The notes under the pieces were generated by a model that was not told where the DNA came from, ran no database searches, and saw only the letters and a program-made list of their open reading frames with translations. Shown here one piece after another: positions 7,313 through 11,811 of a stretch of DNA of 64,000 nucleotides. The position numbers and the translations under genes were made by a program. The stretch covers positions 62,001 through 126,000 of the forward strand of contig NZ_MUXN01000013.1 of assembly GCF_001995215.1 (NCBI RefSeq), given 5' to 3'. This stretch comes from Amycolatopsis azurea DSM 43854 (GTDB lineage Bacteria > Actinomycetota > Actinomycetes > Mycobacteriales > Pseudonocardiaceae). Position 1 is the stretch's first letter, and every line of letters begins with the position of its first letter.

Positions 7313-9583
7313 TCAGGAGATCGTCGCCGCGCGGAGGAGATCTTCGACGCCCGGCGTCCGCCACTCGTCCATCACCACGACTTGCCTGTCCGCAACGAAC
7401 CAGATCCGCTGGGTCACTTTCGTCTCACCGCTTCCGCCCGTCTGTCCACGAGGAACACACTGGATCGTCCACTCTTCGTAGGACGCCGTCGCCTCGCCCA
7501 CCGGTGCGGTGGCGGAAGCCGTGCGCTCGGCGTCACCCTCTTGGCGGAGGTCCTTGCGTTCGGCGGCGTTGCAGGCCCGGCCGCCCGCGCTGCGCCGGTA
7601 GAACTCACCGGGCCGGTACGGCGGCTGCTCGGCGGATTGCTGGGTGTTGTCCGTGATCAGGACGTATTTGCAGTTGAAGTACTTCTTGGGGTCCGGGCAG
7701 CCCGGAGCGACGAGCACCTTCTCCAGTCCCTGCGAGACCACTGTCCAGTCCTTCGGCAGGTGCAGGGTCAGCGCGCCCGCCGACACGTCCGTGAGTCCTT
7801 GCGCGGGCGGGGCGGACGACGTCGCTTTGACCGTCTTCCCGCCGGTCACGCCGTCGACGAGGGCGGGGCTCAGCAGGTCGGCCACCTTGTCGTAGGGCAG
7901 CGTGTAGTCCTGGACACCGCAGGCCGTGGAGAAGCCGAGGTCGGTCAGGTTGACGGTGATCTCGACGGCCGTCGGCGCGAAGGCGAGCCACACCTTCGGC
8001 TCGTCGGTGAGGTCCGCCGACTTGAGGGGCCGGAACGGGAAGACGCTGGTCGGGGCGCCGCACTGTTCCTTGTCGGGCCAGATCCGCTCGGTGAGCCGTC
8101 CCATTCCGTCGTCCGAAAGGACGCCGGGGGCGAACAGCTCGGCGGGGCTGAGCGCCCTTCCCTCCTTCAGGTCGACGGTCACCGCCGCGCGGCCGTAGCT
8201 CCAGGTCGGATGCGGTTTGTTCTCGAGGTCGTGGGTGTAGCGCACCGAGAGGTAGCGGTCGTTCTGCGAGCGCACGTCGGCCTTCGTCAGCAGCTTGTAC
8301 GGGCCGCGTTCCGGCTCCAGTCCGGCGGCGCCGGGGCCGGTCTTGCGGTTCCACGCGTCGATCGGCGCCGTCAGCGCGTCGTTGACCCGCTTCAGCCAGC
8401 CTTGATCCGGCGACCCGGTCACCTCCGGGTAGTCCCCGCTGTAGGGGATGTTCGTGCCGGGCACCGTCCCGGTCCGCGTCTTCATGGCGACCTTGAGCGC
8501 GACGGCCTGCTGAGAGGTCGGCGGCGGCTGCGGTGGCGGGGTGCTCGCGTCGGAGAAGACGACCACCCCGCCGACCACGGCGGCCGTCGCGGCGACGACG
8601 CCGACGGCGATCTTCAGCCCGGCCGCGATCCCGCCGGTCGACGCGGCCACCGCGCCCGTTCCGGCGGCGGCGACGCCCGGAGCGGCCGCCGTACCGGCGC
8701 CGAGCAGGACCAACGGCGTCGCGGCGGCGAGCACACCGGTCGCCTTCGCCAGCCGCGACCAGCCCTTGCGCTCCCAGTCTTCGCCGTACCCCGCGCGGGC
8801 GACGCGTTCGAGTTCGCCGACGAACGTGAGCGCGTCGGCCGGCCGTTTCGACGGATCCTTCGCCATCCCCGTCGCGACGATCTCGTGCACCGGCTCGGGG
8901 ACTTCGCCGAACGGGATGGGCGCGTGTTCGTGCAGCGTGCGCAGCACCTCGGTCTGTTCCGCCTCGTACGGGCGATGACCGGCGACGCACTGGAAGAACA
9001 CGCAGGTCGCGGCATAGACATCGGTCGCGGGAGTGGCTTGCCCGCCTGCCCATTGCTCGGGCGCCATGTACGCGGGCGTGCCGACGGCCGGGCCGCGTTC
9101 ACCCGCCAGGACGGCCGTGCCGAAGTCGACCAGCTTGCTCTCGCCGGTGTCGGCGACGAGGACGTTGGCCGGTTTGTAGTCCCGGTGGACGACGTTCGCG
9201 GAGTGCGCCGCCGCCAGCCCGAGCAGCGAACCTTTCAGGACCGCGAGAGCCGCTTCGGGTTCGAGAGCGCCTTCGGCCTGCAGCACCGCGCGCAGCGAGA
9301 CGCCGTTGATCGCCTCCATCACGATCGCGGCGCCCTGTGGCGTCTCGAAGAACTCGTACAGCTTCACGACGTGCGGGCTCATGACGCGGTGCAGCGCCAG
9401 CGCCTCCTGGCGGAACGTTTCGAGATAGGCGGGCTCGGCGGCGAAGCGGGAGAAGAGGTACTTGATGGCGACGACGTGGCCGGTGTTGTCCTGGCGCGCG
9501 AGCACCACCCGGCCGAAGGTGCCCGTGCCGAGCTGCTCCAGCTCGGTGAAACCGGGCAATCTCCACTCGTCGCTTAGTTCCAT
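7313..9583 (-). CDS. Transmembrane Ser/Thr protein kinase (second of a tandem pair)
   Basis: A 756-residue receptor-like kinase. The cytosolic kinase domain (about residues 12-280) has the glycine loop LGTGTFGRV, lysine in [23 protein letters not shown] and [10 protein letters not shown]. The usual HRDL/HRDV is HRDY, as in its neighbour. A long Ala/Gly-rich hydrophobic stretch (about 285-365) forms one or more membrane segments, followed by a Pro-rich linker and a 390-residue extracellular region. Part of that region (YSGDYPEVTGSPDQGWLKRVN, then ELFAPG) looks like the PdaC/RsiV-type DUF3298 fold. There are no PASTA repeats. The ATG at 9583 overlaps the upstream kinase by 10 bases, so the two are translationally coupled. 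Confidence 0.88.
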   Translation of the reverse strand: MELSDEWRLPGFTELEQLGTGTFGRVVLARQDNTGHVVAIKYLFSRFAAEPAYLETFRQEALALHRVMSPHVVKLYEFFETPQGAAIVMEAINGVSLRAVLQAEGALEPEAALAVLKGSLLGLAAAHSANVVHRDYKPANVLVADTGESKLVDFGTAVLAGERGPAVGTPAYMAPEQWAGGQATPATDVYAATCVFFQCVAGHRPYEAEQTEVLRTLHEHAPIPFGEVPEPVHEIVATGMAKDPSKRPADALTFVGELERVARAGYGEDWERKGWSRLAKATGVLAAATPLVLLGAGTAAAPGVAAAGTGAVAASTGGIAAGLKIAVGVVAATAAVVGGVVVFSDASTPPPQPPPTSQQAVALKVAMKTRTGTVPGTNIPYSGDYPEVTGSPDQGWLKRVNDALTAPIDAWNRKTGPGAAGLEPERGPYKLLTKADVRSQNDRYLSVRYTHDLENKPHPTWSYGRAAVTVDLKEGRALSPAELFAPGVLSDDGMGRLTERIWPDKEQCGAPTSVFPFRPLKSADLTDEPKVWLAFAPTAVEITVNLTDLGFSTACGVQDYTLPYDKVADLLSPALVDGVTGGKTVKATSSAPPAQGLTDVSAGALTLHLPKDWTVVSQGLEKVLVAPGCPDPKKYFNCKYVLITDNTQQSAEQPPYRPGEFYRRSAGGRACNAAERKDLRQEGDAERTASATAPVGEATASYEEWTIQCVPRGQTGGSGETKVTQRIWFVADRQVVVMDEWRTPGVEDLLRAATIS

Positions 9584-11811
9584 CTTGCCTCTTCCAGGAT
9601 TTTGTCGAGGCCTGGAGTGTTCCATTCGTCCACGATCACGAGCTGCGTTTTCGGCAGGAACCACACTCGCTGGATGACCGTACCGCCGCCGGAGCACATG
9701 AGCCGCCACTCCTCGTAAGCGGCCTTCTTCGTGCCGACCGGTCGGAGGTCCTTTTTCTGCTGGATGGGCGAACCCTGCGTTTCGCCCGGTGCCCCGACGG
9801 AATGGCACGGACGCGGACCGGTGGACCGGTTGTACGGCTTGCCCGGTTCGTACGCCGGGGTGGCCGCGTCGACGCGCGAATTGTCGCTGAAGACGACACC
9901 CGCGCAGTGGAACGGCTGCATCCCGCTGTTCGAGCACCCCTCGGCGGTCACCAGGTAGCGCTCGATGGGCGCGCTGGAGAGCAGCCACCACTTCTCCGGC
10001 GTGGTGATGGTGAAGGCGCCGACGTTGTCCTCTTTGGTCCGTTCGCCCTGCGTGCCGCCGTTCGCGAGGCCGAGCAGGTTCTTCACCGAAGGACTCATGA
10101 GGTCGGTGAGGCGCGCGTACTCGGTGGTGACCTCGGTCGGATCGCAGACGCGCGGGTAGCCGAGCGCGGAACCGTAGACGTAGAACCGCATGCCGTTGGC
10201 CGTGGGCGCCGCTTGCAGGATGGAGTCGTAGTCGAAGGTGTACCGCGCCGAAAGCGCCGTCGCCGGGAGGTGTTCGGGCGATGTCGGCTTGTCGGAGAGG
10301 CAGTCGCCCGGCCTCGCCGAGTCGAGGATCAGGTCTTCGAGTTTCCGCATCCGCGCGGCGGTACCGTCGACGTTGTCGAAGAGGTGCGCGCCGGAGATCT
10401 GTTCGCCCTTGGTCAGGTCGATGACGATCGGGCGGACGCTGAACCCGCCGTGGTTGCCGAACTGGGTGGAGTCGATCGAGCGTTTGTAGACGACCGAGAC
10501 CAGCTTGTCGTCCTGGCGCAGGATCTCGGCCTCGGTCTTCATGTGCGGGATGTCGCCGTCGGGTTCCCGCTGCGGCTGGTAGCTGTCGGGCCAGAAGTTC
10601 TCGAGCCAGCCGTCGATCGGCGCCATCAGCGCCTTGTTGACCCGGTCTTCGGCGGCCTTGTCCTTAAGGCCGCTGATCCGGACGTACTTGCCGTTGTAGT
10701 CGAAGCCGTCGAACTTCTCGGTGCGGGTGAGCAGGTCGACCTTCATCGCGGAGAGCGTCGTGGCCGGAGGATCGTCGCTGTTGGCGTTGATCACCACGAC
10801 GGTGCCGACGGCGGCCGCGGTGACGGCGGCGACCGCGGCGGTGACCTTGAGGCCGACCGCGATCCCGCCGCCGGTGGTCACCGCGACACCGCCCGCGGCG
10901 CCACCCGCGACGACCGGCGCGGCGGCGGTCCCGGCTCCGAGCAGGGCCAGCGGGGACAGCGCGACCAGGACACCGGCGCCCTTGGCGAGCCAGTGCCAGC
11001 CGTTGCGCTCCCAGTCTTCGCCGTACGCCTTCCTGGCGGACGACTCCAGTTCGGCGACGAACTCGGCCGCGCCCGACGGCCGCTGGGTGACGTCCTTCGC
11101 CATGCCGCGCGCGATGAGGTCGCGGACCGGTTCGGGCACCTCGCCGAACGGGATCGGCGCGTATTCGTGCAGCGTGCGCAGCACTTCGGTCTGTTCGGCC
11201 TCGTACGGCTTGTGCCCGGCGACGCACTGGAAGAACACGCAGGTCGCGGCGTAGACGTCGGTCGCCGGGGTGGCGATCCCGCCCGCCCACTGCTCGGGCG
11301 CCATGTACGCGGGTGTGCCCGCGGCGACCCCGGCCTGCCCGGCGAGCACGGCGATGCCGAAGTCGACGAGCTTGCTCTGCCCCTCGCGGGTGACCAGGAC
11401 GTTGGCCGGTTTGTAGTCGCGGTGGACGGTGCCCGCGGCGTGCGCGCCGGCGAGGCCGAGCAGCGAGCCCTTGAGGATGGCCAGCGCGGCTTCGGGTTCG
11501 AGCTTCTCCTGGCGGCCGAGGATCTCTTTCAGGGAGATTCCGTGAACGGCTTCCATGATGATGGCCGCACCCTGCGGGGTCTCCACGAACTGGTGCAGAC
11601 GGGCGATGTGGGGCCCCGAAACGCGGCTCAGGACGTGGGCCTCTTGGCGGAATTCGGCCAGCCGTTGCGGGTCTGCCGCGAACTTCGCGTACAGGTATTT
11701 GACGGCCACGACCTGCGCGGATTCATCGTGCCGGGCCAGGACGACCCGCCCGAATCCACCTTCACCGAGCGACCCCATCTCGGTGAAACCCGGCAAGGTC
11801 CAGTCGTCCAC
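9574..11811 (-). CDS. Transmembrane Ser/Thr protein kinase (first of a tandem pair)
   Basis: A 745-residue kinase closely similar to the next gene, evidently a tandem duplicate. Kinase domain: LGEGGFGRV (15-23), Lys38, HRDYKPANV (His130, Asp132), DFG (Asp150), [10 protein letters not shown]. Hydrophobic Ala/Gly-rich segment about 280-345, then an extracellular part with [20 protein letters not shown] and AHLFDNVDG, which resembles RsiV/PdaC-type domains (my reading, unverified). The GTG start is preceded by GGAGG at good spacing. The promoter must lie in the 118 bases shared with the divergent CoA-lyase gene. Likely role: sensing an envelope or external signal and phosphorylating cytosolic targets. 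Confidence 0.88.

Follow-up and report, generated by a model that had tools for sequence, protein, structure and literature searches.

The 64,000-nucleotide stretch of Amycolatopsis azurea DSM 43854 analysed here (contig NZ_MUXN01000013.1, positions 62,001 to 126,000; hereafter the window, in whose numbering all positions are given) encodes on its minus strand two tandem receptor Ser/Thr kinases, K1 (9574-11811, 745 amino acids) and K2 (7313-9583, 756 amino acids). Each joins a kinase domain to an ectodomain of two modules, D1 and D2. We consider it probable, with appreciable room for doubt, that the pair are receptors with a two-module exoplasmic sensor, of which D1 is polymorphic and recombining and the output is constant. 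The gene structure, the kinase motifs, the fold of D1, which is that of the Bacillus lysozyme receptor RsiV, and the confinement of exchange to D1 are strongly supported by computation. An RsiV-fold sensor joined to a receptor Ser/Thr kinase appears to be new, no report of such a sensor on a kinase having been found in the open-licence literature; the exchange of D1 is the more surprising part.

In the mechanism that we propose, a cytoplasmic Hanks-type kinase would be followed by a Gly/Ala-rich juxtamembrane stretch, one strong helix and the exoplasmic D1 and D2. D1 would be the recognition part and would bind a ligand in the envelope or outside the cell, probably a peptide or protein. The signal would pass through D2 and the helix to the kinase, presumably by dimerisation, and the kinase would then phosphorylate its substrates. 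Each gene would have two old classes of D1, swapped among species of Amycolatopsis by homologous recombination. Since D1 is exchanged and the kinase and D2 are not, recognition would be under pressure to vary while the output is kept.

The two classes of D1 were defined in each kinase by comparing 14 K1 and 15 K2 orthologues. Identity in D1 was 75-98% within a class and 59-69% between classes; the kinase domains (87-99%) and D2 (73-97%) of the same orthologues did not follow these classes. The segment that differs between classes covers residues 380-585 of both proteins, that is 10057-10674 in K1 and 7829-8446 in K2 (both minus strand; for K1 the four-fold-site test used residues 400-585). Over 15 related loci all four combinations of a K1 class (A or B) with a K2 class (a or b) were observed, Aa at six, Ab at three, Ba at five and Bb at one, the K1 class of L084, whose K1 is cut by a contig end, being assigned by 80% identity.

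When K2 of the window was compared with that of A. thailandensis, D1 was only 64% identical versus 97% for the kinase and 93% for D2; the K1 class is common to both loci (95%). In sliding windows along K2, identity was 45-57% and third-position differences were 0.45-0.50 at about residues 440-560, with recovery on both sides. At four-fold degenerate sites of this pair, 31 of 58 differed in D1 versus 41 of 267 elsewhere (Fisher p 4.7e-9), and no such contrast was found in three same-class control pairs (p 1.0, 0.34 and 0.66). The genes flanking the two loci were 94-100% identical, with s4 of 0.02-0.17. The flank comparison omitted L062, L070 and L073-L080, and in it L071 and L092 are apparently the same contig; the row 3319-4512, a wrong-frame open reading frame (ORF), was dropped from the background, the gene at this place being 3337-4635 on the plus strand.

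Trees were then computed separately for residues 1-350 or 1-340, 380-585 and 600 to the end, with 15 K2 and 14 K1 rows; L062 was omitted, its contig being as long as that of L086, L031 (G223) was unused, and the triple-kinase, D1-only and L069/L070-type loci were set aside as too distant. With the K2 kinase and transmembrane part (1-350), the window, A. thailandensis and A. oliviviridis were grouped with 100/100 support and a class b clade was rejected (p-AU, approximately unbiased test, 8e-29). With D1 (380-585), class b was obtained at 100/100 and the group of the window, A. thailandensis and A. oliviviridis was rejected (p-AU 9e-147). This group was found again with D2 (90/89), where class b was rejected (0.013). 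For K1, class B was rejected by the kinase part and by D2 (0.005 and 0.0013, respectively) and received 100/100 support in D1. Furthermore, the median synonymous divergence (dS) of D1 was higher between classes, going from 0.28 to 0.50 in K1 and from 0.36 to 0.67 in K2, while it barely changed in the kinase and D2.

Three other accounts of the D1 classes were considered and rejected. That the swapped D1 arose by conversion between the K1 and K2 genes was not supported, class a and class b K2 ectodomains being similarly distant from K1 of the window (28-31% identity across the entire ectodomain). Nor was it supported that one class had recently come in from a distant clade, as both classes were about equally far from the outgroups compared (16 hand-picked sequences; 28-35% identity for K2 and 37-44% for K1) and both lay within the orientalis-group branch. 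Point-wise positive selection on D1 was not supported, the ratio of nonsynonymous to synonymous divergence (dN/dS) being below 1. In a comparison made with the window only, the PASTA part of PknB was 80-88% identical in nine relatives, with no gap in this range.

The fold of D1 was examined on models of both ectodomains (396 residues in K1, 402 in K2). The K1 model (predicted local confidence, pLDDT, 82.9) divides at about its residue 240. Searched against PDB with Foldseek, it gave seven matches at E<=0.001, the top six being chains from 5jen, 3cyg, 3s5t and 4e72, and the best match was 5jen_A, RsiV with lysozyme (E 4.9e-9). D1 of K1 was superimposed on these four RsiV/DUF3298 entries with VIA Z scores that were, in descending order, 15.2, 13.1, 13.0 and 12.9 over 191-210 residues (root-mean-square deviation 3.6-4.2). 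The K2 model (pLDDT 83.5) gave eight matches at E<=0.001, the top six again from 5jen, 3cyg, 3s5t and 4e72; 5jen_A also headed this list (E 5.2e-8), and the Z scores across the four entries were 14.1-11.9. Thus, in the structure prediction that the earlier note had called for, both models put RsiV first.

Lower Z scores with K1 were obtained for PgdA (2c1i, 8.0) and MPT64 (2hhi, 7.7). MPT64/Rv1980c shares the D1 fold with 3cyg, 3s5t and 4e72, whose Z scores with K1 were 13.0-15.2; we know of no kinase in any of these proteins. At the sequence level, a profile of 44 sequences run against 177,635 PDB sequences had 3cyg (3.6e-4), 5jen (0.032) and 3s5t (0.034) as its top three, and Pfam PdaC was matched at E<=1 in 26 of the 44 family members (best 2e-5). 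We regard it as well supported by the models and by this profile that D1 of K1 (residues 350-590, 10042-10764, with Cys504 and Cys556) and D1 of K2 (residues 355-590, 7814-8521), both on the minus strand, have the RsiV/DUF4163-DUF3298 fold (RsiV 76-285). As neither reaches the PF11738 or PF13739 gathering scores, D1 was classed by its fold only and not as a Pfam member; Pfam DUF3298 (PF11738), run over the A. azurea genome, had no match. The motifs from which the earlier note had deduced an RsiV/DUF3298-like ectodomain are present (YSGDYPEVTG and ELF in K2, HLF in K1), and its proposal stands for D1, about 60% of each ectodomain; the last 155-165 residues or so are a separate module.

This module, D2, extends to the stop codon from residue 591 in both proteins: residues 591-745 in K1 (9574-10041, with Cys626, 636, 669 and 706) and 591-756 in K2 (7313-7813), on the minus strand. 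With whole-ectodomain models, VIA Z scores of about 6-8.6 were obtained for the PsbP/Mog1/LpqN/Apa class, Apa being the best (8.4 for K1, 8.6 for K2). LpqN, Apa, PsbP, Mog1 and Tsi3 have the overall predicted fold of D2, and similarity at such Z scores may mean no more than a common arrangement. Among the ectodomains, D2 had no Pfam match at E<=1. Stand-alone D2 was found as well, its open frames being mostly about 200-270 residues long; in four that were read (L059, L077, L078 and L079, 236-266 residues), a signal peptide and a lipobox were recognised by eye at the start, and three of them (L077, L078 and L079) had no Pfam match at E<=0.01. Conversely, other members such as L071, L072 and L073 have D1 without D2.

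Both genes are complete, and together they fill 7313-11811 with a 10-nucleotide overlap. K1 begins with GTG. For K2, the mechanical ORF list gave a start at 9991 and 892 amino acids, an over-extension; the start was set at ATG 9583 because this codon aligns with the start of K1. The two proteins are paralogues, identical in 364 of 784 alignment columns (46%), and are probably co-translated. The description of two overlapping, duplicated kinase genes by the earlier note, including its end points, was therefore correct. By D1 of K1, the closest relatives are A. thailandensis (95%) and A. oliviviridis (93%), in the orientalis group of Amycolatopsis.

The kinase domains (K1 residues 1-262, 11026-11811; K2 residues 1-265, 8789-9583; minus strand) scored 149.1 bits (2.1e-43) and 158.8 bits (2.2e-46), respectively, with Pkinase, versus a cut-off of 31.7, which makes both Hanks-type Ser/Thr kinases. 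The Lys, HRD, DFG and APE motifs are intact in both, as previously noted, and the HRDY of the catalytic loop is indeed unusual: among the 15 kinase loci of this genome that matched the HRD pattern (there was no match at 11 of 26), only K1 and K2 have the Tyr. At the loci of relatives, every match to HRD-x-[KS]-P-x-N had Tyr (43 of 43 and 49 of 49), counts that come from overlapping loci and are not independent; this pattern overlooks the third tandem kinases, which carry HRDL or HRDV. No PASTA match was found in K1 or K2 with Pfam up to E 10, and NCBIfam PknB_PASTA_kin was matched over the kinase part only (184.6 and 184.9 bits, cut-off 450). The absence of PASTA from the pair is thus as first described, and the same window has an ordinary PASTA kinase at 39582-41585. 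The PADLOC PD-T4-6 models also matched K1 and K2, with E as low as 1.2e-65 and chiefly across the kinase part; this is generic kinase similarity and is not diagnostic.

Between the kinase and D1, the long Ala/Gly-rich membrane regions already pointed out were confirmed. In K1 (residues 263-349, 10765-11025), the juxtamembrane region contains a weak hydrophobic and a strong transmembrane segment; the corresponding region of K2 comprises residues 266-354 (8522-8788), both on the minus strand. Of the 14 kinases examined with two hydrophobicity scales (Kyte-Doolittle and apparent dG), 13 have the weak segment (Kyte-Doolittle 1.6-1.9) ahead of the strong one. The third kinase of L067 has the strong segment only, followed by D1-D2 as in K1 and K2. 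Two cysteines in D1 and four in D2 match between K1 and K2. From the single helix of L067, the lipoprotein-like stand-alone D2 ORFs and the conserved cysteines, we infer one membrane crossing, with D1-D2 outside. That both hydrophobic segments cross the membrane, which would leave D1 and D2 in the cytoplasm, would fit the weak segment of the 13 kinases, but is very improbable in view of these same three observations.

Between its kinase domain and transmembrane segment, L071 has a Gly/Ala-rich juxtamembrane linker that consists of a tandem repeat (GASVGTGASV-like) and is some 80 residues longer than that of K1. The third tandem kinases (L066:12606-15167, L067:6747-8774 and L068:13127-16333) are all three devoid of the P+1/APE part of the activation segment and have a DIYAATC helix within some 20 residues after DFG; the third kinase may be a pseudokinase that partners the other two.

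Several observations weigh against the reading of K1 and K2 as receptors with an exchanged recognition module. Concerning exchange, the p values are descriptive only, because the data had been seen before the classes and segments were named. The dN/dS of D1 stays below 1 (0.30-0.34 within and 0.44-0.57 between classes) and relaxed constraint contributes, so that the claim is limited to module exchange and long-kept classes. K1 shows a modest synonymous contrast (p 0.02 in each of two between-class pairs), and a flanking gene (5641-6291) reaches s4 of 0.36 in the same loci, a value that the D1 divergence of K1 does not exceed; for these two reasons, exchange in K1 rests on identities and trees and is a weaker case than K2. 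Moreover, none of the neighbouring genes tested co-varies with D1, so that no adjacent ligand gene was seen; these neighbours are 90-100% identical to those of the window in orientalis-group loci, the gene at 13848-14555 being lower (82-94% in four loci).

Concerning the fold, a profile from K1-type D1 alone was weaker and retrieved only 3cyg of this fold (0.036), RsiV not being listed. The PdaC match of K1 (15.2 bits) is below the Pfam gathering cut-off (29.1), K2 has no PdaC match, and Pfam DUF3298 was matched by neither. The models are predictions and not solved structures, built from 27-row alignments, with a predicted template-modelling score (pTM) of about 0.6. As to topology, which is itself deduced, the one-helix L067 kinase also has a hydrophobic D1 strand (Kyte-Doolittle 1.79).

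Which ligand D1 would bind was considered next. The extension that each trans-species D1 class fits a different protein partner (a signal of its own group, the muramidase or toxin of a rival, or a phage), with a shared kinase giving one response, is put forward tentatively and we hold it to be rather unlikely in this precise form. AgrC and ComP are histidine kinases with a variable sensor half, a conserved kinase half and an adjacent, co-varying signal gene. They share with K1 and K2 a variable sensor on a conserved kinase; K1 and K2 are, however, Ser/Thr kinases, and no co-varying neighbour was seen. If partners were class-specific, the pair would be a Ser/Thr-kinase counterpart of the AgrC/ComP sensor polymorphism.

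About as likely is that K1 and K2 are general sensors of wall fragments or envelope stress, D1 binding peptidoglycan or a wall polymer as PASTA does in PknB. The peptidoglycan deacetylase PgdA is among the fold relatives (2c1i, Z 8.0 and 7.8), as is the Pfam PdaC domain through its sub-threshold match, and for D2 there is a resemblance to LpqN, an envelope protein (Z 7.6 with both models). However, the wall chemistry of these species, which we assume to be nearly constant, would leave two mobile and discrete D1 classes unexplained.

It is less likely that K1 and K2 are lysozyme or muramidase receptors, in which D1 would grip the active site of the muramidase as RsiV does and the kinase would trigger envelope protection. 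With both models Foldseek placed the RsiV-lysozyme complex first, and the D2 fold class includes Tsi3, which pairs with the muramidase effector Tse3. The Foldseek E of this entry (3wa5_B) was 2.8e-3 with K2, and its VIA Z (6.2-6.8 with the K1 and K2 models) is under those of Apa and of the best PsbP rows. In both models, nevertheless, 3cyg, called uncharacterised, outscores RsiV in VIA Z. The Tyr of the DUF3298 motif PYAxG is seen in 3s5t and aligns with Arg in K1. In K1, Asn453 is aligned with RsiV Ser169 (the numbering offset being deduced from the length of the chain and its final residue); in K2, the position of Ser169 lies in another loop, HPTW. Pro259 and Tyr261 of RsiV are beyond the aligned stretch of K1. 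According to PMC5014341, Ser169 weighs more in lysozyme binding than Pro259 and Tyr261, and MPT64/Rv1980c, of the same fold, does not bind hen lysozyme. Since Ser169 appears not to be kept and Rv1980c has this fold without lysozyme binding, the fold by itself names no ligand. The earlier suggestion of lysozyme or envelope-damage sensing is therefore weakened in its lysozyme part.

Still less probable is that D1 is an exposed target of phages or of toxins secreted by competitors, the classes being an escape from attack and not a changed signal. In favour of such a target, the classes are old and discrete, and recombination has spread them in a single exposed domain. Against it, the loop tips GNHG (K1) and HPTW (K2) do not differ between the classes, which hints that D1 has retained a function.

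With a varying recognition module as the preferred reading, K1 and K2 can be compared with known receptors. RsiV, the anti-sigma-V factor and lysozyme receptor of Bacillus (5jen), has in common with them the D1 fold and is a membrane protein with DUF4163-DUF3298 outside (PMC5014341); K1 and K2 differ by a cytoplasmic kinase in place of a sigma binder, by the apparent change of Ser169 and by the additional D2. With the PASTA kinases PknB, PrkC and Stk1 (review PMC6213207), they share the Hanks-type kinase, the transmembrane helix and an exoplasmic sensor; their ectodomain is D1 and D2 without PASTA, and the PASTA kinase of A. azurea is separate. Receptor Ser/Thr kinases with other sensors are already known from the same review, PknD of Mycobacterium tuberculosis having a beta-propeller, which is another fold. 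In K1 and K2, a lysozyme-receptor fold is joined to a receptor Ser/Thr kinase, a class whose stimuli are still being sought. A natural handle on the ligand comes from the two D1 classes that each receptor has against backgrounds otherwise alike, as the four D1 variants could separate a variable ligand from a constant one.

The survey of related genomes for the kinase pair, also proposed in the earlier note, was carried out. The K1 ectodomain was matched in 46 of 297 genomes of the family; by match ranges, 37 of them have D1 and nine D2 only. A D1 profile was found in 15 of 298 genomes of the order, three of the 15 outside the family, and in 4 of 396 genomes phylum-wide, A. azurea being included in both counts. 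These searches scored only some first-look candidates per genome (six; seven and nine for the D1 profile), which makes absences soft. Five of six D1-profile ORFs from outside the family, the sixth being L112, were scanned, and no kinase domain was found in these five: L098 matched DUF3298 above the cut-off (1.8e-10), L113 and L114 below it, and L097 and L099 had sub-threshold PdaC. The sub-threshold DUF3298 ORFs L113:1489-2355 and L114:1492-2439, from the same order, have lipoprotein-like starts by eye.

Loci have one, two or three tandem kinases, and D1 is in frame with the kinase at all those examined save L030 (contig end) and L047 (frame break). Genes for HpcH/HpaI lyases and the ORF 6311-6961 both flank the kinases in 23 of 25 loci, the other two ending at a contig edge; no functional link of K1/K2 to either was found. 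The protein of 6311-6961 (216 amino acids) is 97-99% identical in orientalis-group loci, adjoins the kinases in 24 of the 25 loci compared and has no Pfam match at E<=0.001. At 13848-14555, an Abi-like protein is encoded (PADLOC PD-T4-5, 4.1e-9; Pfam Abi_2 just below the cut-off), which was found at 4 of the 25 related loci compared, some of which end before reaching that position. Finally, about 20 kb from K1/K2, genes for FhaA, a PP2C phosphatase, RodA/FtsW, a penicillin-binding protein, a kinase and a PASTA kinase lie in a row (32076-41585), which we take to be the usual pknA-pknB cluster.

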